DNA from: a virus
Strand: one strand, 5' to 3'
Length of the DNA stretch: 42,717 nt
Virus record (IMG/VR): IMGVR_UViG_3300009788_000167
Span: 1-42,717 of that record
Numbering within the stretch: the stretch's first letter is position 1; each line of letters opens with the position of its first letter. The position numbers and the translations under genes were made by a program. This document shows positions 4,496 through 19,927 of this stretch, piece by piece. The notes beneath the pieces are model-generated. The model ran no database searches. It saw only the letters and a program-made list of their open reading frames with translations, and was not told the origin of the DNA.

Positions 4496-6703
4496 ATGAT
4501 CTACCTAGACGGCGAATGCCGCAGCCGGGCGAATATCAAGCGCCTCGGCGCGCCCGCCTACTGCATGGACCCTTCCACAGAAATACTGTGCATGGTCCTC
4601 GCCGTCGATGACGGACCGCTGGAATTCTTCGACTTCACTGGAGAGACGCACCTTGAGCAACCCTCAGACCTTGAGAGAGCCTGGCGAAATATTGGTATTT
4701 CCCACGTCCTCCGATTCCATGATCGGATGCTGGAGCTTCTTGAAGAGGGCCACGATATTGAGGCCCACAATGCCCTCATGGAGTACTCACTCCTCCGATG
4801 GGTGCTTCCTCGGCACGGCATCACGGTAGAGGTTCCAGTGGAGCGCTTCCGTTGCTCCGCAGCAAAGGCCGCCGCCCACGGCCTCCCCCGAGCGCTGGAA
4901 AACATGGCCAAGGTCCTCATGCTGGAGGAGCAGAAGGACAAGGAGGGGAACAAGCTCATGAAAAAGCTGTGTTCCCCCTACCCTAGGAAAGCGAGCCCGT
5001 TCCATCCGTACACCGTCGAAGAAATCCGACGCCTCATGTTGTACTGCGGCCAGGATGTGCGAACAGAACGGGCGGGCTCGAAGGAGTTGCGAGATCTCTC
5101 AGAAGAGGAGCTCGCCGTCTTTCACGCTGATATGTACATCAATCTCCGTGGCATTCCGGTGGACACCAAGCTCGCCACGGGCGCCGTTCACGTGGCCGAG
5201 CGCTACGCCGAAGAGGTGCACGCCCAGGTCTACGAGATAACAGACCACCGCGTGAAGCGGGCGACGATGCGACAGAAACTCCTCTCCTGGTTCAAGGACA
5301 ACGGCGCCGAGTTCGAAAACACTCAACGTCAAACTGTAGACGAAGCTCTCGAGCGGGAGACCGACCCTCGGGGAGTACCTCTTCGGGCCCGAGTAGTCCA
5401 CGTGCTCCAGGCCATGAAGCGAGTTGGCCGGACCTCCGCCTCCAAGTTCAAGCGAGTCCTAGAGGTGGCACGAAGCGAGGTAGGTGAATTTGACGCTGGC
5501 ATAGATTGGGGAAGACCAAATGCCATAGTTTGGCGGCAACCGGGGGAATCTCTGCCACACCAGACTCGGGGTCGATTGAAAAGCCTGTACCCCCGGGTCT
5601 ACTCGTGCTTTATGTATCACGGTGCCCACACTGGCCGCTGGAGCGGGAAAATTCTACAGCCCCAGAACTTGGCCCGCTGTGATATCAAACCCTGGGAATG
5701 GGATCTTGCCATTGGGCTATTGCGAGCGGATGACGTGGAGAGCTTCTTCCGAGTCTTCGAGGATCCCATGGCCACGCTCCGGGCAGTGGTACGGGCGGTC
5801 ATTCAAGCGGACCCGGGTTTCGAACTGGTAGGCGGAGACTTCTCCCAGGTGGAAGCTCGGGTCCTCTTCTGGCTCGCTGAATGTGAGCGGGGCTTGGAGC
5901 TCTTCCGCGACGCGTCCACGGATCCCTACTGCTACATGGCTTCCCGGATCTTCAATCGAGCAGTGACGAAAGCGGATAAGCCCCGCCGGTGGGTGGGAAA
6001 GCAGACGGTTCTTGGCTGCGGGTTCCAGATGGGGGCGGAGCGTTTTCAGGAGCAGTGCGCGAGCTATGAGGACGTGGGAATTGAAGTAACCGAAGACCTC
6101 TCAGAAGACTGTGTCGCCGAATACAGGGAGACATTTTCCGAGGTTCCAAAGCTGTGGAAAGAAGTCGAGGCCGCAGCGATTGAAGCCGTGCACCGTCGGG
6201 GCGAGGGCTCCGCTGTGGCCTGTGCCGGCGGCCGGGTTCTCTGGGGCATGGACGGGCGGTTCCTGCGGGCTCGCCTCCCCTCCGGCCGAACCATTGCTTA
6301 CCCGTATCCAGAGGTGAAGCTCTATCACCACGTGAAAATCAAGAAGGATGGAACGCGCATCGAGTGGACCAAGGACACTCTGTTTTACCGGGTGGTGAAG
6401 CACGGCACCAAGTTTATCCGAGAGCCTACGTTCGGCGGAAAACTCGTGGAGAATCTAGCCCAGGCTATTGCCAGAGACCTGCAGGCGCGAGCGATGGTAC
6501 GAGCAGAGCGAGAGAATCTCCCAATCATTGCCCACTCTCACGATGAGCTCATGGCGCACGTGAAGAAGGGACACAGATGGGTCACTGGTCCTAATTCCAC
6601 CGCGGAAGAGAAATTTCGAGAGATCTTCCTGGACCTCCCAGAGTGGGCGGAAGGGTTGCCCATCGACTGCGAAACGTGGACAGCGGAGAGGTATGAAAAA
6701 TGA
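4496..6703 (+). CDS. Family A DNA polymerase with 3'-5' exonuclease domain
   Basis: A 735-aa phage replicative polymerase. The N-terminal exonuclease motifs are visible: Exo I YLDGE (D5, E7), Exo II HNALMEYSLL (N92; the usual Asp is Glu96) and Exo III YCGQD (Y183, D187). Polymerase motif A is GGDFSQVEARV (D448), motif B lies in RRWVGKQTVLGCGFQMG (about 497-513) and motif C is SHDEL (H682, D683, E684). All catalytic acids of the polymerase site are present. The Exo I and Exo II motifs deviate slightly from the common D-x-E-T and Asp forms, so proofreading should not be taken for granted. It follows the hairpin at 4399-4475 and is coupled by ATGA to a 47-aa ORF. Confidence 0.95.
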   Translation: MIYLDGECRSRANIKRLGAPAYCMDPSTEILCMVLAVDDGPLEFFDFTGETHLEQPSDLERAWRNIGISHVLRFHDRMLELLEEGHDIEAHNALMEYSLLRWVLPRHGITVEVPVERFRCSAAKAAAHGLPRALENMAKVLMLEEQKDKEGNKLMKKLCSPYPRKASPFHPYTVEEIRRLMLYCGQDVRTERAGSKELRDLSEEELAVFHADMYINLRGIPVDTKLATGAVHVAERYAEEVHAQVYEITDHRVKRATMRQKLLSWFKDNGAEFENTQRQTVDEALERETDPRGVPLRARVVHVLQAMKRVGRTSASKFKRVLEVARSEVGEFDAGIDWGRPNAIVWRQPGESLPHQTRGRLKSLYPRVYSCFMYHGAHTGRWSGKILQPQNLARCDIKPWEWDLAIGLLRADDVESFFRVFEDPMATLRAVVRAVIQADPGFELVGGDFSQVEARVLFWLAECERGLELFRDASTDPYCYMASRIFNRAVTKADKPRRWVGKQTVLGCGFQMGAERFQEQCASYEDVGIEVTEDLSEDCVAEYRETFSEVPKLWKEVEAAAIEAVHRRGEGSAVACAGGRVLWGMDGRFLRARLPSGRTIAYPYPEVKLYHHVKIKKDGTRIEWTKDTLFYRVVKHGTKFIREPTFGGKLVENLAQAIARDLQARAMVRAERENLPIIAHSHDELMAHVKKGHRWVTGPNSTAEEKFREIFLDLPEWAEGLPIDCETWTAERYEK

Positions 6704-7290: not shown

Positions 7291-8232
7291 ATGGACTGGT
7301 TCCGGGTACTCGAAGGTCACGTCCTCACGAAGCTTGAGCTTGTGCCGAGCGGCTCCGTCCGTTGCTGCGTGACTTCTCCACCCTACTTCCGACAGCGGCG
7401 CTACGGCGTGCCCGATGAGATCGGTTGGGAAGACTCCGTGGATGAGTACTGCGCCCGCTTGGTGGAGATTTTCGCCGAGGTGCATCGCGTTCTCTCAGAT
7501 GACGGTACGCTGTGGGTGAACATTGGCGACAAATTCAATGGAAGCGGAGGGGCCGGCGGCGACTACGTTGGTGGGGGCATCCGAGACGGGCAACGGCGGT
7601 ACAAGGCATGCCGACTACCCGAAGCAAAGCCGAAAGACCTGCTCATGGTTCCGGCGAAGCTGGCTATAGCGCTGCGTGACTGGGGCTGGTATCTCCGCTC
7701 TGACAATATCTGGAACAAGACGAACACGCAGCCCACTGGAGTGGCAGACCGCCCCCTCATCTTCCACGAGTACGTTTTCCAGTTCTCCAAGTCTCGCCGC
7801 TACTTCTATGATCAGGATGCCGTGCGAGAGATCACAGGGCGCGAGGCCAGTTGGGAAGAGTGGAGAGCGTACAAGGGGAGGAACAAAGGCGCTGACGCGG
7901 ACCGCTTCGGCAAGGGCTACCGAAAGCGCTCCCCAGCGATCACCCATCCCCTCGGCCGAGGGTTGCGCTCGGTGTGGAAGATCTCTGGGAACACGAGCAA
8001 CGGGAAGAAGCGGAAGCACTTCTCCAGTTTCCCCACCGGCCTACCCCGCATCCCAATCTTAGCAGGCAGCGCACCGGGAGACGTGGTGCTCGACTGTTTC
8101 TCGGGCTCCGGCTCCACTGGTGTAGAAGCGCTACGGCTGGACCGCCGATATCTGGGCATCGAGCCAGACGCCAAGCATGCCGCCAGTTCTCGAGAGCGTC
8201 TCTCGGATGGATGGCTCGAGGATCTCTTATGA
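7291..8232 (+). CDS. DNA methyltransferase, N4-cytosine/N6-adenine type
   Basis: A 313-aa beta-class amino-methyltransferase. Catalytic motif IV is TSPPY (residues 28-32), the form most common in N4-cytosine enzymes. SAM-binding motif I, DCFSGSGSTG (about 268-277), comes late in the chain, as in this class. Between them lie LWVNIGDKF, a variable target-recognition part and HPLGRGLRSVWKI. ATG 7291 was chosen because it fits the family N-terminus (DWFRVLEGH) and follows AGGAG. The last codons GAGGATCTCTT form the ribosome-binding site for the next gene, the C5 methylase. No restriction endonuclease is encoded next to it, so self-protection against host restriction or expression control is likely. 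Confidence 0.9.
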   Translation: MDWFRVLEGHVLTKLELVPSGSVRCCVTSPPYFRQRRYGVPDEIGWEDSVDEYCARLVEIFAEVHRVLSDDGTLWVNIGDKFNGSGGAGGDYVGGGIRDGQRRYKACRLPEAKPKDLLMVPAKLAIALRDWGWYLRSDNIWNKTNTQPTGVADRPLIFHEYVFQFSKSRRYFYDQDAVREITGREASWEEWRAYKGRNKGADADRFGKGYRKRSPAITHPLGRGLRSVWKISGNTSNGKKRKHFSSFPTGLPRIPILAGSAPGDVVLDCFSGSGSTGVEALRLDRRYLGIEPDAKHAASSRERLSDGWLEDLL

Positions 8233-9314
8233 GTGATGGGCTCTACAATGACGTGGAACCTTTCGTAATCCCATGGTTATGGAATCTCATGGACGTTGGC
8301 TTGATACGGGAGGGCCTGGTAGACGGACGTCCTATCCAAGAACTCCGGAGCGAGGATCTCAATGGCGTCACTCAGTTCCACGCTTTCGCCGGTATCGGGG
8401 CATGGTCTTACGCCCTCCGACTCGCTGGCTGGCCCGATGAGGTTCCTGTGTGGACCGGTTCATGTCCGTGTCAGCCTTTCTCCTGTGCAGGAAAGAAACG
8501 AGGATTCAAAGATGAGCTCCACCTCTGGCCAGAATGGTTCCGGCTTATCCGAGAGTGTCGCCCTCCAGTCGTGTTTGGAGAACAGGTTGCAAGCCCTGAC
8601 GGCCGGGCGTGGATCGACCTTGTTTCGACTGAAATGGAAGCACTGGGTTACTCCTTTGGGGCGGCAGATTTGTGCGCTGCGGGCATCGGTGCTCCGCACA
8701 TCCGACAGCGCCTTTGGTTCGTGGCCATTACTAGTGGTGAACGACTCGGAAGGATACGCCTACAGTTACAGCAACGGGTGGAAAGATCAGAAATGCCTGA
8801 AACTCCTAGAAGTTGCGAGACTGGCGCATTGGCCGACAGCGAAAGCATCCGACTCGGGGCGGGGTGGACAAGCGAAACGTGCCATGGGGACAGCACGCCG
8901 CGCTCATCTGAACGATACCGCCATGCTAGCAAGCTGGGGTACTCCTGCAGCCCGAGATTGGAGAGACGGCCGGGCCAGTCCAGAGACCATGAAGAGGAAT
9001 TCTCGCCCTCTGAACGAACAGACAGTGCAACTAGCGGGTTCTGGGAAGACTGCGGATGGATCCCCTGCCAAGACGGAAAAGCGAGGCCAATTGCACCCGG
9101 AACATTCCCTCTGGCTCATGGGGTTGCCGGTCGCGTGGCTGTGGTGCGCCCCAGGCAACAAACCATACCCACGGTTCCAGGAGAAGTCCACTGGTATAGT
9201 CGACGAGGAGCCTTGAAAGCCATTGGTAATGCTATCGTCGCCGAAGTAGCGGAGATATTCATCCGGGCTGTCATCGACCACCTACTGGAACCCTGCGTGG
9301 GAGATCTCTTGTGA
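8229..9314 (+). CDS. C5-cytosine DNA methyltransferase (Dcm family)
   Basis: A 361-aa protein starting in an ATGA overlap with the upstream methylase. After about 48 extra residues comes motif I FAGIGAWS (53-60), then the catalytic loop GSCPCQPFS (Cys81), GEQVAS and HIRQRLWFVA. The middle, about residues 185-285, is unusually rich in Ser, Arg and Glu. The end has the phage-type GWIPCQDGKARPIAPGTFPLAHG and the cofactor-side motif GALKAIGNAIV. It should methylate C5 of cytosine at an unknown site. A second long ORF (8362-9216) overlaps it in the +1 frame, and the low-complexity middle is where that ORF looks most protein-like. Confidence 0.92.
   Translation: MSDGLYNDVEPFVIPWLWNLMDVGLIREGLVDGRPIQELRSEDLNGVTQFHAFAGIGAWSYALRLAGWPDEVPVWTGSCPCQPFSCAGKKRGFKDELHLWPEWFRLIRECRPPVVFGEQVASPDGRAWIDLVSTEMEALGYSFGAADLCAAGIGAPHIRQRLWFVAITSGERLGRIRLQLQQRVERSEMPETPRSCETGALADSESIRLGAGWTSETCHGDSTPRSSERYRHASKLGYSCSPRLERRPGQSRDHEEEFSPSERTDSATSGFWEDCGWIPCQDGKARPIAPGTFPLAHGVAGRVAVVRPRQQTIPTVPGEVHWYSRRGALKAIGNAIVAEVAEIFIRAVIDHLLEPCVGDLL
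8362..9216 (+). CDS. Overlapping ORF inside the C5 methylase (284 aa, +1 frame)
   Basis: A 284-codon ORF lying wholly inside the cytosine methylase gene in another frame. ATG 8362 is preceded by GAGGA-TCTCA, the same spacing and sequence used by accepted starts at 3327 and 8229. Its translation holds segments I recognise as recurring in phage proteins linked to methylases: STLFRLKWKHWVTPLGRQI, ALRASVLRTSDSAF, LASWGTPAARDWRDG, LNEQTVQLAG, and a last block HPEHSLWLMGLPVAWLWCAP. These blocks are more protein-like than the matching part of the methylase frame. Function unknown. It could be a genuine overprinted gene or a fragment of former methylase sequence; I lean to genuine. Confidence 0.55.
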   Translation: MASLSSTLSPVSGHGLTPSDSLAGPMRFLCGPVHVRVSLSPVQERNEDSKMSSTSGQNGSGLSESVALQSCLENRLQALTAGRGSTLFRLKWKHWVTPLGRQICALRASVLRTSDSAFGSWPLLVVNDSEGYAYSYSNGWKDQKCLKLLEVARLAHWPTAKASDSGRGGQAKRAMGTARRAHLNDTAMLASWGTPAARDWRDGRASPETMKRNSRPLNEQTVQLAGSGKTADGSPAKTEKRGQLHPEHSLWLMGLPVAWLWCAPGNKPYPRFQEKSTGIVDEEP

Positions 9315-10879
9315 CCTTCGCCGAGTCCATTCGGGAGGAGCTCGCCAAAGCAGAGCGCGGCGACGAGGACGCCAAGATACGCGCCCGCCGGCTGGTCTGT
9401 CGACTCATCCCGGAATCTCCCACCGATCCGTATGGACACCAGGAGCGGGAGATAAAGATCTCGGCGCTTCTCCCGGCATGGGCCCGCGAGTGGTCCATGC
9501 GCACTGGCAAGAGCAAGGTGAATATCGGGGAGGCCTCACTTCTCTGGCAGCTCGGGCTCATCGACGCCGTTCTGATCATTTGCCCCTACGGGGTCCATCA
9601 CCAGTGGGTGAAAGATGAGATTCCGCGGCACTCCGGAATTCCGTTCCTCGCTCACGCCTGGGAGTCACGCAGTTCCCGGACGAAATGGCATCAGGCGGCA
9701 ATAGAGGAGCTCGTGAGAGAGCGTCAGATGCTCCCATGGCTCTGTGTGAATGCTGACGCTCTCCGCGGTGATGCTTGCCGGGCCGCCATTCAGAAATTCA
9801 TGCGGCGGCGAAAAATGCTCATCGTGTTCGACGAGTCCCAGCTTTTCAAGAAGCCCGGGGCAAAGCGGACTCGGATCGCTCGTTCTCTGGCGCGCCGCTG
9901 CGAATACCGACGGATCCAGTCGGGCACGATGGTGGGTAACTCACCCCTGGGGCTCTATTCACAGTACGAGCTTCTCGAGAAAGGCTGTCTCGGCTTCACC
10001 AGGTACAAGGATTTCGAGGACCACTTCGCCGTCTTCGCCGATGCCCGGCCGGCGTCGGGGCAGCGCTTTCGCATTCTCAAGGAATACCGCAACCTCGAGG
10101 AGCTCCGGGAACGCCGGGCCCCTTTCACCTCCGTCGTGCGGCGAGAGGATATAGCGGACATGCCGCCCCTGGTGTCCTCTCGCCGCTACTTTGATCTTGA
10201 GACCGCCCAGCGACGCGCTTACGCAAATCTCCGAGACGATCTTATGACCGAAATCGAAGGACGCTTCGTCTCCGCGGCAGAGGGCGGGGCCGCTCTCACC
10301 CGACTCCAGCAAGTGGCATCGGGTTGGGCCATGGATGAGGTGCGGGACTTCGTTACCGTGGTGCTCCCTGGTCGCTGTCCCCGAATGGCGCTTCTGGAAG
10401 AAGTGCTCTCCTTGGAAGAGGGGCGGGCAATTGTCTGGTGTAGATTCCGAAACGATTGCCAGAGGATTGCTTATCACTTTGAGGAAAAAACTGACCGTGG
10501 CATCCATCAGTACCATGGGGGAGTCAAACGCAGCCGGCGGCCATACCTCCTAGACCGCTGGCGCGAGGATCCTGGGGGTATTCTCGTCGCCACTCCTGAC
10601 ACAGGGGGGACCGGGCTAGATCTCTCAGCGGCTCGCCATGTGATCTGGTTCTCTCACACCTGGGATGCGGACCTCCGGCAACAGGCGAGCGAGCGGGCCA
10701 CGAAGAAAGGCGGCGCCCCAGTGGCCGTCACGGACCTGGTGGCCATCGGAACAGTGGACGAGCACATGCTCCGTCTTCTAGATTCTAAGCACACCATCGC
10801 CGAGGTGGTTGGGGGCGAAGGCTTGTACCAGTACCTCCTCCAGGAGCGAGACAGGTGGAGAAGGGGAAGAGCAGCATGA
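9311..10879 (+). CDS. SNF2/superfamily 2 DNA helicase-translocase
   Basis: A 522-aa protein with GTG start in a GTGA overlap. It has the phage SNF2-like plan: Walker A variant SMRTGKSK (62-69), ICPYGVHHQWVKDEI (motif Ia), the DEAH-box equivalent VFDESQLFK (D174-E175), IQSGTMVGNSP (motif III), GRAIVWCRFRNDC, and a C-terminal GGTGLDLSAARHVIWFSHTWD with motif VI QQASERATKKG. It is expected to hydrolyse ATP and move on duplex DNA during replication, recombination or methylation. DUF2800, DUF2815, polymerase, SNF2 and VRR-NUC genes together form a common phage replication set. The stop overlaps the start of a 43-aa membrane protein. Confidence 0.9.
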   Translation: MTFAESIREELAKAERGDEDAKIRARRLVCRLIPESPTDPYGHQEREIKISALLPAWAREWSMRTGKSKVNIGEASLLWQLGLIDAVLIICPYGVHHQWVKDEIPRHSGIPFLAHAWESRSSRTKWHQAAIEELVRERQMLPWLCVNADALRGDACRAAIQKFMRRRKMLIVFDESQLFKKPGAKRTRIARSLARRCEYRRIQSGTMVGNSPLGLYSQYELLEKGCLGFTRYKDFEDHFAVFADARPASGQRFRILKEYRNLEELRERRAPFTSVVRREDIADMPPLVSSRRYFDLETAQRRAYANLRDDLMTEIEGRFVSAAEGGAALTRLQQVASGWAMDEVRDFVTVVLPGRCPRMALLEEVLSLEEGRAIVWCRFRNDCQRIAYHFEEKTDRGIHQYHGGVKRSRRPYLLDRWREDPGGILVATPDTGGTGLDLSAARHVIWFSHTWDADLRQQASERATKKGGAPVAVTDLVAIGTVDEHMLRLLDSKHTIAEVVGGEGLYQYLLQERDRWRRGRAA

Positions 10880-11007
10880 AGGAAAACCCGGAGCGCTGGC
10901 ACCACATCCGTACAGCCGTGAATGACCTGTACGGAATTGCAATGGTCTGCCTTCTCTTCGCTCTCGTCACTCTGTTCATGTCGCTGCTGGGGTGGGCCTC
11001 TAAATGA
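10876..11007 (+). CDS. Small single-span membrane protein (43 aa)
   Basis: ATG 10876 overlaps the helicase stop (ATGA) and TGA 11007 overlaps the start of the next gene. The first 20 residues are polar (MKENPERWHHIRTAVNDLYG) and are followed by a hydrophobic segment IAMVCLLFALVTLFMSLLGW that should span the inner membrane. Only three residues follow it. Double overlap supports a real gene. Role unknown; small early phage membrane proteins are often host-takeover or exclusion factors. Confidence 0.68.
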   Translation: MKENPERWHHIRTAVNDLYGIAMVCLLFALVTLFMSLLGWASK

Positions 11008-11585
11008 AAAACATGCGCTGCGCCTGCGAGTACCTCCCGCCACTTGTCGGACGTCCAATCCGAAAACCAAACATCTGGTGTGATGTGCACGGGGCCTCTG
11101 ACAGGAGAACAATGGACGTGCTACCCGGACCCGAAGAGAAAGAGAAGGAGGAGAAAGAGATCATGGCAAAAGCAGAGATAGAGGGAATCACAGTACCCGT
11201 GGAGGTGGATGTAACCATAGGCTCCCACGACACCGAGCGCGTGAAGAAACACATGCGTTCAGATGAGGTGGCGGCCTTCGTCTTCGAGCGGCTGAAACTC
11301 CAGGACCCACTCACGGTCAAATTCGTGGAGCGACTACTTTCCATGGCCTCGCTCTTCGACGTCAAACAGCTCGACTACGGCCCTCGGAATATCTCTGAGT
11401 TCGGAGAGCCTGGCGTGGTGGTGCGAATGAATGACAAGTTCGCCCGCATCCGGAATCTCCTGTTCCCCAAGGGTCAGTATCGTCCCGTCGCCCCAGCGAA
11501 TGAGTCCATGGATGACACTTACATGGACGTGGCAAATTACGCCGTCATCGCTCTCATGGTCCGCCATGGGGAGTGGCCCTCGTGA
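11004..11585 (+). CDS. Nmad1/DUF1599 protein with N-terminal Cys/His motif (193 aa)
   Basis: The C-terminal 85 residues carry the Nmad1 (nucleotide modification associated domain 1, DUF1599) signature: YGPRNISEFGEPGVVVRMNDK, FARIRNLLF, then NESMDDTYMDVANYAVIALM. The N-terminus has CAC-x(15)-C-x2-H, a possible small zinc site, joined by a charged linker EEKEKEEKE. Two internal in-frame starts have better ribosome-binding sites than ATG 11004: ATG 11112 (CAGGAG) and ATG 11163 (AAGGAGG), so shorter Nmad1-only products are likely. The domain is associated by gene context with modified nucleotides; here it sits between two DNA methylases and a glycosylase. Exact activity unknown. Confidence 0.8.
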   Translation: MKNMRCACEYLPPLVGRPIRKPNIWCDVHGASDRRTMDVLPGPEEKEKEEKEIMAKAEIEGITVPVEVDVTIGSHDTERVKKHMRSDEVAAFVFERLKLQDPLTVKFVERLLSMASLFDVKQLDYGPRNISEFGEPGVVVRMNDKFARIRNLLFPKGQYRPVAPANESMDDTYMDVANYAVIALMVRHGEWPS

Positions 11586-12313
11586 GTCTCTTCAAGCTCG
11601 GAATCGGGGGACTCTCGACAGAGAATCGCGCCATACTGCTCATCTTGACCAAGGTGAACATGGCCGCCGGCACACCCTCAGTGGTGGCAGAGAAGGAACT
11701 CCAGAAGCGCTGCATGGCGGACCGCCGGCCCATGCGGGTGATCGTCGAGGAGCTCCGGCGAGACGCCGCCTCCGGGGCGTGGCCAGCGATGGCCGATCTG
11801 CCTCCCGCTCCCATGGACCCCCTCCCGTTCCAGGTGGATCTAGCGGACGAGTATCTCTGGTTCCTGGTGGCTTGCCAACTGAAGCACAAGACCAAATGGA
11901 AGAAGCTGGAGCCAGTGCTCGCCACGCTTCGGTGCTTCGCCCCCTACTGGGAGACTCTGGACGGTGCTAGCAGCGATGATCTTGAGCAGATACTCCAGCC
12001 CCTGGGGAAGGCGCGCCACCGGGCCACTCAACTGCTGGACCTGGCGTCGCTCTTCCCCAAGTTCTCGGCGATCGTTTCCAGGGTGGGAGTCGAGGATGCC
12101 CGCGCCGCGGTTCTCGCGTTACCGGGCTGCGGAGATTACGTGGCCGACTCCTGGGACCTCTTCGTTGCTGAGAAGGACCCTGACGAGATCTCTCCCACGG
12201 ACCCCACGCTCCTCGAGTACATGGAGCTTCAGAAGAAGGGGCATGGGCCATGCCTCCGGGATATCGACGCAACCGCTGGCTGCCTGGCCTGTTGGGTGGA
12301 CACCTGGAAATGA
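11582..12313 (+). CDS. HhH-GPD DNA glycosylase, MBD4-like (243 aa)
   Basis: GTG 11582 overlaps the Nmad1 stop (GTGA). From about residue 87 the chain follows the glycosylase domain of MBD4: YLWFLVACQLKHKT, a PVL helix, DLEQILQPLGKARHRA, LDLASLF, then the helix-hairpin-helix LPGCGDYVADSWDLF (from L180) and SPTDPTLLEYM. Asp207 in TDPTL aligns with the catalytic Asp of the family. MBD4-type enzymes remove thymine or uracil from mismatches that arise by deamination of methylated CpG. The N-terminal 80 residues are not recognised, and the end has a CLAC pair. Its place downstream of a C5 methylase fits repair of deaminated 5-methylcytosine, or removal of another base. Confidence 0.78.
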   Translation: MSLFKLGIGGLSTENRAILLILTKVNMAAGTPSVVAEKELQKRCMADRRPMRVIVEELRRDAASGAWPAMADLPPAPMDPLPFQVDLADEYLWFLVACQLKHKTKWKKLEPVLATLRCFAPYWETLDGASSDDLEQILQPLGKARHRATQLLDLASLFPKFSAIVSRVGVEDARAAVLALPGCGDYVADSWDLFVAEKDPDEISPTDPTLLEYMELQKKGHGPCLRDIDATAGCLACWVDTWK

Positions 12314-12744
12314 ACACCGCTGAGAAACATCTGTGGGAATGGCTGGAGAAGGGCACCAGGGGTCTTGGCAAACTCCATTTTCAGCGGATCGAAAACACCA
12401 CAGGTACGGGCACCCTCGACACAGAGGGTTGCTGGGGATCGGAGTCCTTCTGGCTGGAGCTCAAGATTGCCGTAGAGAACGAGGACGGGACGCTTGATAC
12501 AGGTCTCCGCCGCGGTCAAGCTCTGTTCATGGCCCGGCGTCGACGCGCCTGTGGCCGGGCAGCCGTACTCATCCAGGTAGACTCAGCGACCAGGGCCCGA
12601 CGCTACTTGATAGATGGGCTCAAGGGAACCGTGTTGCGAGGTGAGCACGTGCGGGAAGAAGACCTTGCCAACTGGAACATGCTCACCTCTCCCCACGCGC
12701 AACCCATGGAGATCCTGGATGCTCTGACCACCTGGGAGCCATGA
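12310..12744 (+). CDS. VRR-NUC-like nuclease (PD-(D/E)XK)
   Basis: ATG 12310 overlaps the glycosylase stop, giving 144 aa. The core reads RIENTTGTGTLDTEGCW, then SFWLELKIA: the acid before the turn and the E-L-K triplet are the PD-(D/E)XK active site (D near residue 36, E53, K55). RRGQALFMARRRRACGRAAVLI provides the Q and the following beta-strand seen in VRR-NUC and Holliday-junction-resolvase-like enzymes. Phages often carry such a nuclease beside an SNF2 helicase, where it probably resolves or trims branched DNA. The exact substrate is not deducible. Confidence 0.8.
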   Translation: MNTAEKHLWEWLEKGTRGLGKLHFQRIENTTGTGTLDTEGCWGSESFWLELKIAVENEDGTLDTGLRRGQALFMARRRRACGRAAVLIQVDSATRARRYLIDGLKGTVLRGEHVREEDLANWNMLTSPHAQPMEILDALTTWEP

Positions 12745-13167: not shown

Positions 13168-13458
13168 GGGCTTCGGAGGGGCTGAGGTGCCGTTCTTATA
13201 GACTTCCTCGGCCACTTCGGTGGTCGTCTCAATGTGCCTGTCCCGCTGCCAGGCATCCACCAGGGCGAACGGCACCAGGAAGAAGACGAAGAGAGCCAGC
13301 GCCCTCCAGTGATCGATGGGGATGGTGAGCTCCGTCCCGAGGAGTGCCGACCCCAAGCCTGTGAAGAGCTCCAGGCAGATCAACCCGAACAGATAGACGG
13401 CGGCCCGAAGGAACTCCTTGGCTGTGGTCGGGAGAGACGGCAGAGGGATCTTGCTCAC
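13159..13458 (-). CDS. Holin candidate, two membrane spans (99 aa)
   Basis: GTG 13458 overlaps the endolysin stop (GTGA), so it is translated right after the endolysin and is the last gene of the late operon. Two hydrophobic segments are visible at about residues 17-41 (AAVYLFGLICLELFTGLGSA) and 51-68 (ALALFVFFLVPFALVD), separated by a short polar turn, and followed by a charged tail HIETTTEVAEEVYKNG. Size, topology and position next to the endolysin match class II holins, which form pores in the inner membrane at the lysis time. There is no family signature, so the call rests on topology and context. Confidence 0.65.
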   Translation of the reverse strand: MSKIPLPSLPTTAKEFLRAAVYLFGLICLELFTGLGSALLGTELTIPIDHWRALALFVFFLVPFALVDAWQRDRHIETTTEVAEEVYKNGTSAPPKPEE

Positions 13459-14381
13459 GCGAATAGCCGCCCAATGAGTTTGGGGAGACGGAGGAGCTTC
13501 CCGAAGAGTCCGCCGAGGCGCTCCGTCGCCAAGCTCCGGAGATGGCCGAACAACTGGCCCTGAGCAATCTCCGCCACGTCTTCACGTCGCCCAATGACGA
13601 CAGTGCCCCGTACCCGCACGGCGTACAGGCGGTTCGCCACCTCGACGCGCCCGCGGGCGAGCTCGTGAGGGCTGAGGAATCGGAGCTGAGGTTCGGGACG
13701 CCTATCAGAGCGACACAACACCACCGGCACCACGATAGCTCCGATGCCTCCGGGAAGTCGCTCATTGTCGGTCACATACTCGAACCCGGCCTCCGTCTGG
13801 AAACCATGCGGCCCCTCTTCCAGGGCTTCCACGTCTTCCAGGGACAGTCCTTCCACCTCTTCGGTGTCGTCGCTCATTTCCCCTTCTTTCTGTGGCGCTT
13901 CCGCGTCACCTTCGTTGCTCTCTGTCTCGTCCATCCCCAAGGCCGGCACCAGGCCGCCTCCGCGATCCACAAAGGCGAGCGCCTCTTCCCATGGCATCGT
14001 GCCCGCCTCGGGTCGGTGCACCTGGAAATGAAGATGTGGACCCGTGGCGTTTGGGTGCGTCTCGGGAGTCTCGTAGATAGCCGTCATCTGAATAGGCGTG
14101 CCATCCGGTCCGGGAGGCGCCGGAAATCGGAGGTTGACTTCTTTCTCCAAGCGGAGGGGCACGCCACCGGGCATATCGAAGGTGCGGACGTCCACGCCTC
14201 TGAGATCCGAATGAGGGCTCCCCGGGTCTTTGCGATACACGTCCGTGATAGTGAGCGTGAGGCCTCGAGCAGCGAGCCAGCGGGCCACCCACAGCACCAG
14301 AGCTTGAAGCCGGGCGTCTGTGCTCTGCCATTCCTCGGCATCGGTCAGCCGCTTGAATCTTAGTTCTACTTCCACGGTCAC
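13455..14381 (-). CDS. Endolysin candidate: M15-type zinc peptidase with amphipathic tail (308 aa)
   Basis: GTG 14381 follows AGGAGG by three bases. The N-terminal domain has zinc-ligand motifs of LAS/M15 peptidases: PHSDLRGVDV (H57, D64, the H-x6-D pattern) and a later GPHLHFQV (H116, H118). Such enzymes cut peptide cross-links of peptidoglycan. An acidic linker follows (about 155-190), then a beta-rich domain. The last 34 residues are an amphipathic cationic segment (ERLGGLFGKLLRLPKLIGRLF), like membrane-active peptides. An internal ATG at 13877 with GAAGGGG upstream could make the C-terminal part alone. Placement between two membrane protein genes supports a lysis role; a virion-associated lysin is possible. 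Confidence 0.72.
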   Translation of the reverse strand: MTVEVELRFKRLTDAEEWQSTDARLQALVLWVARWLAARGLTLTITDVYRKDPGSPHSDLRGVDVRTFDMPGGVPLRLEKEVNLRFPAPPGPDGTPIQMTAIYETPETHPNATGPHLHFQVHRPEAGTMPWEEALAFVDRGGGLVPALGMDETESNEGDAEAPQKEGEMSDDTEEVEGLSLEDVEALEEGPHGFQTEAGFEYVTDNERLPGGIGAIVVPVVLCRSDRRPEPQLRFLSPHELARGRVEVANRLYAVRVRGTVVIGRREDVAEIAQGQLFGHLRSLATERLGGLFGKLLRLPKLIGRLFA

Positions 14382-14429
14382 AGGCCTCCTAGGTACAGGG
14401 TACGACGGCGGCGGCGCGGTAGCCAGCAC

Positions 14430-17596: not shown

Positions 17597-19927
17597 TCAG
17601 CGGTACACCATTTCAATGGAATGATATCCCGCGGCCCCTCCGATTGCATTATGATCGACCGTCAGCCCGGCATTGTGGCCAGCTAGCAGGCTCGAGAATA
17701 CTGGGGCCAGGTCGATCTTCGTGAAAACGCTCACGGTGTAGGCGTAAGTCGTCGCCACGTCTGCCTCGGAATTCGTTGCGGGGTCCTCGCCATCCAGAGC
17801 GTAGTCAGTGAAGAGGTCGATATCCGCGGTTGCGTTGGTGGAAGTCGGGATCACAATGAGTTCGAGGGAGACGAGTGCATGGAAGTCGTCAGGTATCTTG
17901 AAGCTGAAATTCCCTTGCCCGTTGGCAGCGATGGAGTTCACAGCGTAATCCCCGGATACGGAGTTATAGTCAGTCGCTTCGAAGGTAATCGTCTTGTTCG
18001 TCGGGATCCAATTCACTCCGTCGAACTCCATGCGTTGCCCGGCGAGTGGCGTCGTGGTGATCATATTCACGTCGCTCATGTCGTCGATCGAGAGGAAGCG
18101 ATCGGGGAGGATGATGAGGGTCGAGACGTCCTTCGCCACTCCCACCGATACCCGGAAGGTGGTAGGGAGTGTGCCCGTCACTGCGCCCGAGACATTCTCT
18201 GATAGGTAGTAGCGGGTGTTCGGAACTAGGACCGCGCCCACGTCATCACGGAAGGTGTCGCCCCTCTCTCCGATCGTCTGGACCTGGACCAGAGTCGAGC
18301 TCAGGACCTTTTTCACGACGCCATTCACCCTCGCCGTAGCGGTTGTGTTCGCCTGCGCCTTCGAGACTTGGCCAGAGGTGGTGTCGAGGAAAACCACATC
18401 GTTCGTGGTGAGCGCGGAAGCTGTCGTCGCCAAGTAGGTGACCTGGCTCGGGTCAGTGTTTCGAAGGGCGTAGCCGAGTACTGACGCCTGGAGCCCTCCA
18501 GCTGTCCAAGCGTTGAGCCAGTGGCCTTTAGCTTCCTGATCAGAGTTGACCGTAACCCAGCAATCGTTAACCTCATCTGCCCCGTTCTCATTGCGGATGC
18601 AGATGTGGTCATCGAGGTCTAAGACTGTGACCCCGTTTTCAGTGAGGAAGAGATCAGAAGCCGTCGCTGTGTTGGTGGTCACAACACGGATTTGGGCAGC
18701 GGCGGATCCGACCGGGATCGCCGCTGAGAGGTCAATCACCTGGTCTGCGATGACCGTCTCATCCGGGAAATTTCCGGCCGAACTCCCGACTGTAAGGGCC
18801 ACGGGTTGCTTGAAGAAAAAGACATTCTCGACTTGGCTCGAGACAGTCGCTTCGACCACATATCCGTACACGACGATGAAATGCGCGTTAAATGTCTGAG
18901 CACTTGTGAGGTTCGCCTGGAAAGATTGCGTCCCTGGAGAGAACCAAGCGACCGTACTTCCAGCGCTGAAAGCGCTAGTCCCTGCGGTGACTACTCGGTA
19001 GTTAGTGTCGGACGAATCCCTTCTTACGTTGCCGCCTACTGCCCCTGTAGGAACCTCCATGCCCCACACAATCAGAGCCCCGATAGCGTTCGAAGGCGCA
19101 CCATCTTGACTCAGCTCGATGGTGACGTGTGTCGTATCTATTGGCTCCGGATCTGTTGGGCCGAAAGCCTCTTCTCGAATGATGTTTCGACCCGAGGCAG
19201 CGAAGCCCCAATCAATCCCGCTCGCCCCATCCGAGATTTGCGTCTGACCTTCGGGCGCGGGCAGGCCATCGGTTTTGGAGTTGAAATCGGCACCCTCAAT
19301 GGTTGAAGTCGAAACCGCCGTTCCACGGTTAGATCCATCAGAGACGAAGATGTGCCCGGCCGGGGCAGTGGTCGTGATGGACTCGATTGCTCCTCCACCT
19401 GAGCCCCCACCGGACGCTAGCTGAATATGAGTCGTACTCACTGCCCGACCGACTAGCACAGTCTTGATTCCGGCAGTCTCCACGGATGTGGTTTTTCCTG
19501 CTACGGCGGATGAGATGAAATAGTCCAGGCCTGTAGAGAGAACTAGCCCCGCGTCGTCAGTGATGGGCCCAATGGTCGCGCAAGTTGAAATGGTGGCGGA
19601 GGTGGTGGTGTCCGTCTTCTGGACCATGCCACCGAGCGAGCATTCCACGTTTACCAGGCTGGTGCAGATGGCGAGGTCTATCCGGTCCGTCGTCGTGTCA
19701 TGGAAGACGACGGAGCCAACGTCAAACTGGGAGGTGGTGATGTACTCCCGGGAACAAGAAGCCGCTTCCAGGATGTCCATATTCGCATTGCGACGGTCAT
19801 GGAAATTCCGGTCCCGCTTGGTGGGCTTGTTCAATTCCAGTTCGGTGGTCACCTCATTGGCAGCGAGGAGACCAGAGGCGAGCAGCAGAAAGAAAGCGAT
19901 CACTATGAAATGTCTGTATCGTGTCAT
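17597..19927 (-). CDS. Large tail-fibre-like protein with signal peptide (776 aa)
   Basis: ATG 19927 overlaps the upstream stop (ATGA), so the start is well fixed. It begins TRYRHFIVIAFFLLLASGLL, a basic n-region plus hydrophobic core with a cut near LLA/AN. The mature N-terminus NEVTTELELNKPTKRDRNFH and MDILEAASCSREY look like phage fibre attachment segments. Repetitive beta domains follow, with SGQVSKAQANTTATARVNGV and NTRYYLSENVSGAVTG typical of tail fibres. Six cysteines, four of them in the first quarter, would fit disulfides formed outside the cytoplasm. It is the largest of five consecutive genes with leaders and may be the main receptor-binding protein. Confidence 0.78.
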   Translation of the reverse strand: MTRYRHFIVIAFFLLLASGLLAANEVTTELELNKPTKRDRNFHDRRNANMDILEAASCSREYITTSQFDVGSVVFHDTTTDRIDLAICTSLVNVECSLGGMVQKTDTTTSATISTCATIGPITDDAGLVLSTGLDYFISSAVAGKTTSVETAGIKTVLVGRAVSTTHIQLASGGGSGGGAIESITTTAPAGHIFVSDGSNRGTAVSTSTIEGADFNSKTDGLPAPEGQTQISDGASGIDWGFAASGRNIIREEAFGPTDPEPIDTTHVTIELSQDGAPSNAIGALIVWGMEVPTGAVGGNVRRDSSDTNYRVVTAGTSAFSAGSTVAWFSPGTQSFQANLTSAQTFNAHFIVVYGYVVEATVSSQVENVFFFKQPVALTVGSSAGNFPDETVIADQVIDLSAAIPVGSAAAQIRVVTTNTATASDLFLTENGVTVLDLDDHICIRNENGADEVNDCWVTVNSDQEAKGHWLNAWTAGGLQASVLGYALRNTDPSQVTYLATTASALTTNDVVFLDTTSGQVSKAQANTTATARVNGVVKKVLSSTLVQVQTIGERGDTFRDDVGAVLVPNTRYYLSENVSGAVTGTLPTTFRVSVGVAKDVSTLIILPDRFLSIDDMSDVNMITTTPLAGQRMEFDGVNWIPTNKTITFEATDYNSVSGDYAVNSIAANGQGNFSFKIPDDFHALVSLELIVIPTSTNATADIDLFTDYALDGEDPATNSEADVATTYAYTVSVFTKIDLAPVFSSLLAGHNAGLTVDHNAIGGAAGYHSIEMVYR

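Follow-up and report, generated by a model that had tools for sequence, protein, structure and literature searches.

The window analysed here is the 42,717-base virus record IMGVR_UViG_3300009788_000167, and the island under study lies at positions 7291-12744 of its plus strand, downstream of a DNA polymerase I (PolA) gene. The island is a packed operon of methylases, a helicase, an Nmad1 protein, a glycosylase and a nuclease, and the coupling described in the initial annotation was borne out by the 4-base overlaps between successive genes (8229/8232, 9311/9314, 10876/10879, 11004/11007, 11582/11585, 12310/12313, and 12741/12744). Two of its genes are of particular interest, namely a cytosine-C5 methylase gene and a gene for a DNA glycosylase (11582-12313). 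The C5-methylase gene (8229-9314; PF00145, 6.2e-17; phrog_363, 1e-66) had already been called as such, but a second gene nested within it in the +1 frame at 8362-9216 had been missed. This nested gene encodes 284 amino acids and matches phrog_1008 (3.6e-21) and phrog_31772 (6.3e-14), and a Shine-Dalgarno-like GAGG is located at 8352-8355, 6 bases 5' of its ATG. Near its end, the codons at 9091-9129 encode a stretch resembling methylase motif IX (LHPEHSLWLMGLP; conserved columns L244-P256 of the alignment).

Comparison with related sequences indicates that the C5-methylase gene codes in two frames. For this, we used a set of 92 genes (the window, 11 phage genes, and 80 IMG/VR loci) that were fetched by the C5 protein rather than by the nested frame. 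In the scans, the best 80 of 587 relatives were retained for the C5 protein and the best 80 of 586 for an alignment of the nested protein, while a third scan retained the best 80 of 227; these locus sets have some contigs in common (e.g., L096 and L120), which makes them non-independent, and their counts must not be added up. All 92 C5-selected genes have a +1 frame that is open for at least 200 codons, with a median of 307 codons versus 148 in synonymous shuffles. An 80% identity threshold removed 13 of the 92 genes, and the 79 that were left (median identity 54%) contained only 3 +1-frame stops over 238 overlap columns, compared to a mean of 235 and a minimum of 214 in 30 synonymous shuffles. 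The +1-frame BLOSUM similarity in the overlap was 1.80, versus 0.40 in the shuffles. Upstream of the nested start there were 135 +1-frame stops versus 108 in the shuffles, and the excess in similarity was nearly gone (0.52 versus 0.46). Third-base changes, which are normally the commonest, stood at 60% upstream but at 41% within the overlap. At four-fold sites encoding the same amino acid, the third base differed in 37% of comparisons within the overlap, against 71% upstream of it and 53% downstream. Five single-coding control genes from related phages had stop counts near the null and no deficit (the absence of stops in the second set of this control analysis is by construction).

The placement of the nested frame is also consistent across the family. 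In most genes the nested frame begins 73-133 bases downstream of the C5 start, and in 84 of the 92 it terminates ahead of the C5 stop. Shine-Dalgarno matches of at least 4 bases were present 5' of the nested ATG in 48 of 73 cases, while the null averaged 18.8 of about 55 and never exceeded 27. When loci were selected by the nested protein instead, a C5 frame was found in the same phase in all 80 viral loci as well as in ST20, and in all 80 loci from bacterial genomes, 78 of which had an overlap of at least 200 codons. For a more distant branch, a motif was used as the query, and the C5 frame was in the same phase in 78 of the 80 loci obtained in this way among the 120 stretches listed.

The conserved motifs of the methylase are divided between the two frames. 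Using motif patterns of our own, we found motifs IV and VI in the main frame of all 92 genes, motif VIII in 89, and motif X in 84, with none of these in the nested frame; motif I was seen by eye in the main-frame alignment. Motif IX, on the other hand, occurred in no main frame and, by a strict pattern, in 88 nested frames, and of the remaining four genes three carry small variants and one is cut by a contig end. For the bacterial-genome loci we used a slightly looser motif IX pattern, which matched 73 of 80 nested frames and 1 of 80 main frames. Profiles of the nested protein match single-chain actinophage enzymes at the site of motif IX (hhalign E-values of 7.9e-5 and 4.3e-5), and in eight other phage C5 genes motif IX was present in exactly one frame each, the main frame in five and the +1 frame in three. 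The nested protein is basic, with an isoelectric point (pI) of 9.7 in the window and a median of 10.0 over 70 members, and it contains conserved (W/L)PTP repeats. Conservation is poor in the variable region of the main frame. Compared with ten relatives, the C5 protein of the window also has about 23 inserted residues immediately ahead of motif X. The single-chain actinophage C5 genes (L313-L316 and L320) have a partial +1 open frame of 107-250 codons that stops short of motif IX; its similarity to the N-terminal half of the nested protein might be a chance effect of GC-rich sequence or a relic.

Cytosine methylases made of two chains have been described before, and the small gene of M.EcoHK31I lies inside the large gene in another frame, encoding a beta subunit of about 176 amino acids. 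In the available part of the account of these enzymes (PMC3404938), the large subunit of M.EcoHK31I (YGGCCR) carries motifs I-VIII and X as well as the target-recognition domain, while the small subunit carries only motif IX. As this motif split matches the one found here, the C5 gene and its family probably represent a two-subunit cytosine methylase coded in two frames. The main frame would give the catalytic subunit, which carries motifs I-VIII and X and lacks motif IX, the fully nested +1 frame would give a basic subunit ending in motif IX from its own start and ribosome site, and the two chains would come together as a single active cytosine methylase in the manner of M.EcoHK31I. The window family differs from M.EcoHK31I in being carried by phages and prophages and in the size of the nested protein (about 285 amino acids). 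In M.AquI, two chains likewise make up one C5 methylase, but this enzyme is described in the same partial source as split after motif VIII, with motifs IX and X and half of the variable region on the small subunit, whereas the window family keeps motif X in the large chain. A further case of a gene lying out of frame within a methylase gene of a phage is ShiLan (PMC11855218, available in part), but that is an inserted homing element coding for an HNH endonuclease in an actinophage methylase, while the nested frame of the window overlaps the methylase core and has no HNH match. We infer expression of the nested frame and formation of the heterodimer, as well as the substrates. Taken together with the MBD4-like glycosylase of thymidylate context discussed below, we consider this dual-frame, two-subunit explanation to be quite probable.

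Several observations weigh against this interpretation. The single-gene open-frame test gave p>0.05 for the +1 frame in 10 of the 92 genes. Similarity in the +2 frame was also above the null (1.32 versus 0.33), yet this frame is rich in stops (750 versus 669), and the +1 similarity of the control genes was above the null as well; similarity alone is therefore weak evidence for dual coding. The match to motif IX spans just 21-23 columns, and its hhalign probability is only 61-69%. Searches with the nested protein against Pfam, NCBIfam, and the PDB found no relative, and its predicted structure is poor (mean predicted local distance difference test score of 58.4, predicted template modelling score of 0.28), too poor for a structure search. 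The (W/L)PTP repeats may belong to a recognition region, and in the available part of the M.EcoHK31I account (PMC3404938) the recognition domain is in the large subunit, so the split is perhaps not identical.

The nested frame might instead encode a real but independent protein, such as a regulator or anti-defence factor, and its basic product, its long N-terminal part without a known counterpart, and its low-confidence fold would all fit such a role. We find this quite unlikely, as the main frame lacks motif IX in 92 of 92 genes and the nested frame carries it, the same complementarity holds in 8 of 8 other phage enzymes, and the nested family was found without an overlapping C5 frame in only two loci of the selected sets. 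It is highly unlikely that the nested frame is a shadow open frame that arises from codon bias and methylase conservation and gives no product. Long +1 frames are indeed common in GC-rich genes, several of which have null means of 150-260 codons, and the +1 similarity of control genes exceeds that of shuffles, but a shadow frame is at odds with the near absence of stops, the much stronger silent-site constraint in the overlap, the enrichment of ribosome sites before nested starts, the conservation of a motif IX that is absent from the main frame, and the lack of a similarity excess upstream of the nested start. Programmed frameshifting that joins both frames into one chain would restore the classical motif order (I-VIII in the main frame, IX in the nested frame, and X in the main frame) if the ribosome switched twice, but it is hardly credible given that two shifts are needed and that the nested frame opens well before it would be required, with its own start and an enriched ribosome site.

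Judged by its reading frames, the two-frame methylase layout is widespread in phages and prophages and is usually annotated as a single gene. The C5 frame matched 414 phage records, 182 of them over at least 80% of the query (the rest among those listed mostly covered no more than the catalytic core). For the nested frame there were 196 matching records, and in 140 the match extended over 80% or more of the query. A scan of viral contigs with the single nested protein found no relatives, whereas the alignment-based scan did. Among 12 fetched phage loci of the nested family, only the C5 frame is annotated in nine (L021-L025 and L027-L030), only the nested frame in two (ST20, L031, and Cr-LKS3, L032), and both frames in one (PhiXhv-28, L026). 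Gene 58 of phage N15 is also a member of this family, with only its C5 frame annotated. The nested protein is held by 13 plasmid records, none of which is annotated as EcoHK31I. Both frames are represented in the PHROG database by a family of their own, and both families are named DNA methyltransferase. We found no phage dual-frame C5 methylase in the literature searched, which included few subscription papers, and we make no claim that such a gene is unpublished; the available parts of PMC8227390 and PMC9936078 do not treat one, and the nearest sources for the nested gene, likewise available in part, are the ShiLan paper (PMC11855218) and the M.EcoHK31I account (PMC3404938).

If the two-subunit interpretation is correct, the members of a common family of phage methylases, among them gene 58 of the well-known phage N15, would each consist of two overlapping genes, and sequence records and family libraries would name one frame or the other of a methylase pair. 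As an overlapping gene pair, it would also be long and deeply conserved. It is conceivable, though we offer this only tentatively and regard it as somewhat doubtful, that one large lineage of phage C5 methylases has its recognition and motif IX part in a second frame over the catalytic core, and that this part has changed frame in evolution, being nested in most phages and in frame in actinophages, such that one stretch of DNA codes for both halves of a heterodimer.

The second gene of interest encodes a predicted DNA glycosylase, and its assignment as MBD4-like is strongly supported. Its preferred start is the GTG at 11582, which overlaps the Nmad1 stop, although the GTG at 11573 is possible. 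The glycosylase sequence alone gave no Pfam or PHROG match, only noise in a PDB search, and no relatives in a single-protein scan of viral contigs. Relatives with 36-38% identity were present in four phages (7 records), and the alignment-based scan recovered 15 IMG/VR loci. Two of these relatives score around the Pfam cut-off for HhH-GPD of 26.2 bits, one above it (L001, 29.6 bits) and one just under it (L002, 25.7 bits). An alignment of 14 sequences conserves LPGCGxY, one serine, and P-x-D, and the family profile matched MBD4 chains in the PDB with an E-value of 2.4e-29, followed by MIG (5.9e-12) and EndoIII (2e-11). The structural model, which is confident over residues 81-220 or so, also placed MBD4 entries first in a fold comparison (Z of 17.3-18.3 versus 14.8 for the next), and both Foldseek and VIA-align gave MBD4 entries the first rank. 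The HhH-GPD fold and MBD4-like layout proposed in the initial annotation are thus upheld by both the family profile and the structure comparison.

The aspartate of the P-x-D motif aligns with that of the MBD4 stretch P-E-D-H-K, and this residue (codon 12200-12202) and a tyrosine (codon 12137-12139) both align with catalytic residues of MBD4. We take the aspartate to be catalytic and the tyrosine to stand in place of the EndoIII lysine. The earlier designation of the aspartate as D207 is correct when translation starts at GTG 11582; counted from GTG 11573 it is D210. In common with the glycosylase domain of MBD4 and with the MIG thymine-DNA glycosylase, the window enzyme has a predicted HhH-GPD fold with an active-site aspartate and tyrosine and without the EndoIII lysine. 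It differs from MBD4 in its phage setting and in its identity of 22-24% over the domain, and no Pfam family for a methyl-CpG-binding domain was matched in it at E-values up to 1; because of this last result we describe it as MBD4-like rather than as MBD4. The enzyme would be monofunctional, removing U or T opposite G, and such bases arising from deaminated cytosine would be its simplest substrate; this substrate is suggested by the fold only, which counts against the overall interpretation. By title and abstract, we found nothing relevant in the literature on phage MBD4. The N-terminal extension of about 80 residues (11582-11815) is absent from the other 13 aligned relatives and has three helices predicted with low confidence, and a search for a fusion of the N-terminal 90 amino acids with neighbouring phage proteins gave no match.

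The initial annotation had suggested that the phage pairs cytosine methylation with its own MBD4-type repair of the resulting T:G mismatches. We examined this in 19 related glycosylase loci, a set that includes near-identical pairs and contig ends, using 19 query proteins. Thymidylate synthase was a neighbour in all 19 loci, dCMP deaminase, a MazG-like pyrophosphohydrolase, and the nuclease in 18 each, the SNF2-type helicase in 17, and PolA and DHFR in 16 each, with contig ends cutting some of them. Neither of the window's two methylases nor its Nmad1 protein had a match in these loci, and searches of the 19 whole records found a C5 methylase (PF00145) in one and an N6/N4 methylase (PF01555) in none. 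The shared context of the glycosylase is therefore pyrimidine metabolism in a replication module, and a pairing with methylation may hold at most in this one phage. The methylase and glycosylase genes do lie in one operon in the window, and MBD4 acts on T:G, with T:G-containing structures among the fold matches, but given the neighbourhoods of its relatives we consider the pairing unlikely. The alternative suggestion, that the glycosylase acts on an unusual base made through Nmad1, found no evidence either, as the window's Nmad1 is unmatched in the 19 loci. The ancestral setting of the glycosylase would instead be thymidylate and dCMP-deaminase metabolism. With it, the MBD4-like enzymes gain a phage branch that is connected with thymidylate synthesis. 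No thymidylate cassette was found in the window, but the record may be incomplete. The one glycosylase record with a C5 methylase (G015, locus L019) is the most distant relative, and its methylase is of another subfamily. It is also possible that the conserved cassette surrounding the glycosylase at L001-L018 (MazG-like pyrophosphohydrolase, thymidylate synthase, dCMP deaminase, and DHFR) supplies a modified pyrimidine.

The remaining genes of the island were mostly named correctly before. The first is a TSPPY-type methylase (7291-8232) of the beta class of N6-adenine/N4-cytosine methylases, in which the TSPPY motif is present (PF01555, E=2.3e-43; phrog_67, 2e-52). The SNF2-type helicase or translocase at 9311-10879 scores above the cut-offs of both PF00176 (29.9 versus 24.9 bits, 4e-7) and PF00271 (46.6 versus 23.5 bits, 4.7e-12) and matches phrog_62 (1.1e-89). 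It is followed by a small open reading frame (ORF) of 43 amino acids without a Pfam or PHROG family (10876-11007) and by the Nmad1 (DUF1599) protein at 11004-11585, which exceeds the curated cut-off of PF07659 (26.5 versus 25 bits) and matches phrog_1485 (3.5e-13). A literature search on Nmad1 gave nothing relevant, and the possibility that it is a remnant of the C-terminus of a MazG-like protein, hinted at by a weak pairwise similarity, was dropped at an hhalign probability of only 2.3. Outside the island, two long ORFs on the minus strand (13455-14429 and 17597-19927) are without a PHROG match.

The last gene of the island (12310-12744; phrog_2165, 2.5e-22) had been called a VRR-NUC nuclease, and this identity could not be confirmed. 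None of 13 aligned members was over any Pfam cut-off, the best Pfam match being RecU in one member (E=0.087, below the cut-off), and the nuclease profile gave no VRR-NUC match in Pfam or the PDB, although a distant member could escape such detection. The 13 members conserve PD-(D/E)XK-like residues, which are consistent with a small nuclease and do not support the DNA helicase label that phrog_2165 carries. The PolA gene (4496-6703; PF00476, 8e-11; phrog_17, 3.6e-82) forms the upstream part of the same replication module, and an SNF2-type helicase follows PolA in relatives too. Because SNF2, PolA, and the nuclease make up the same module in relatives that lack such methylases, they are not specific to modification, and the island would belong to a phage replication operon that has taken in two methylase genes.

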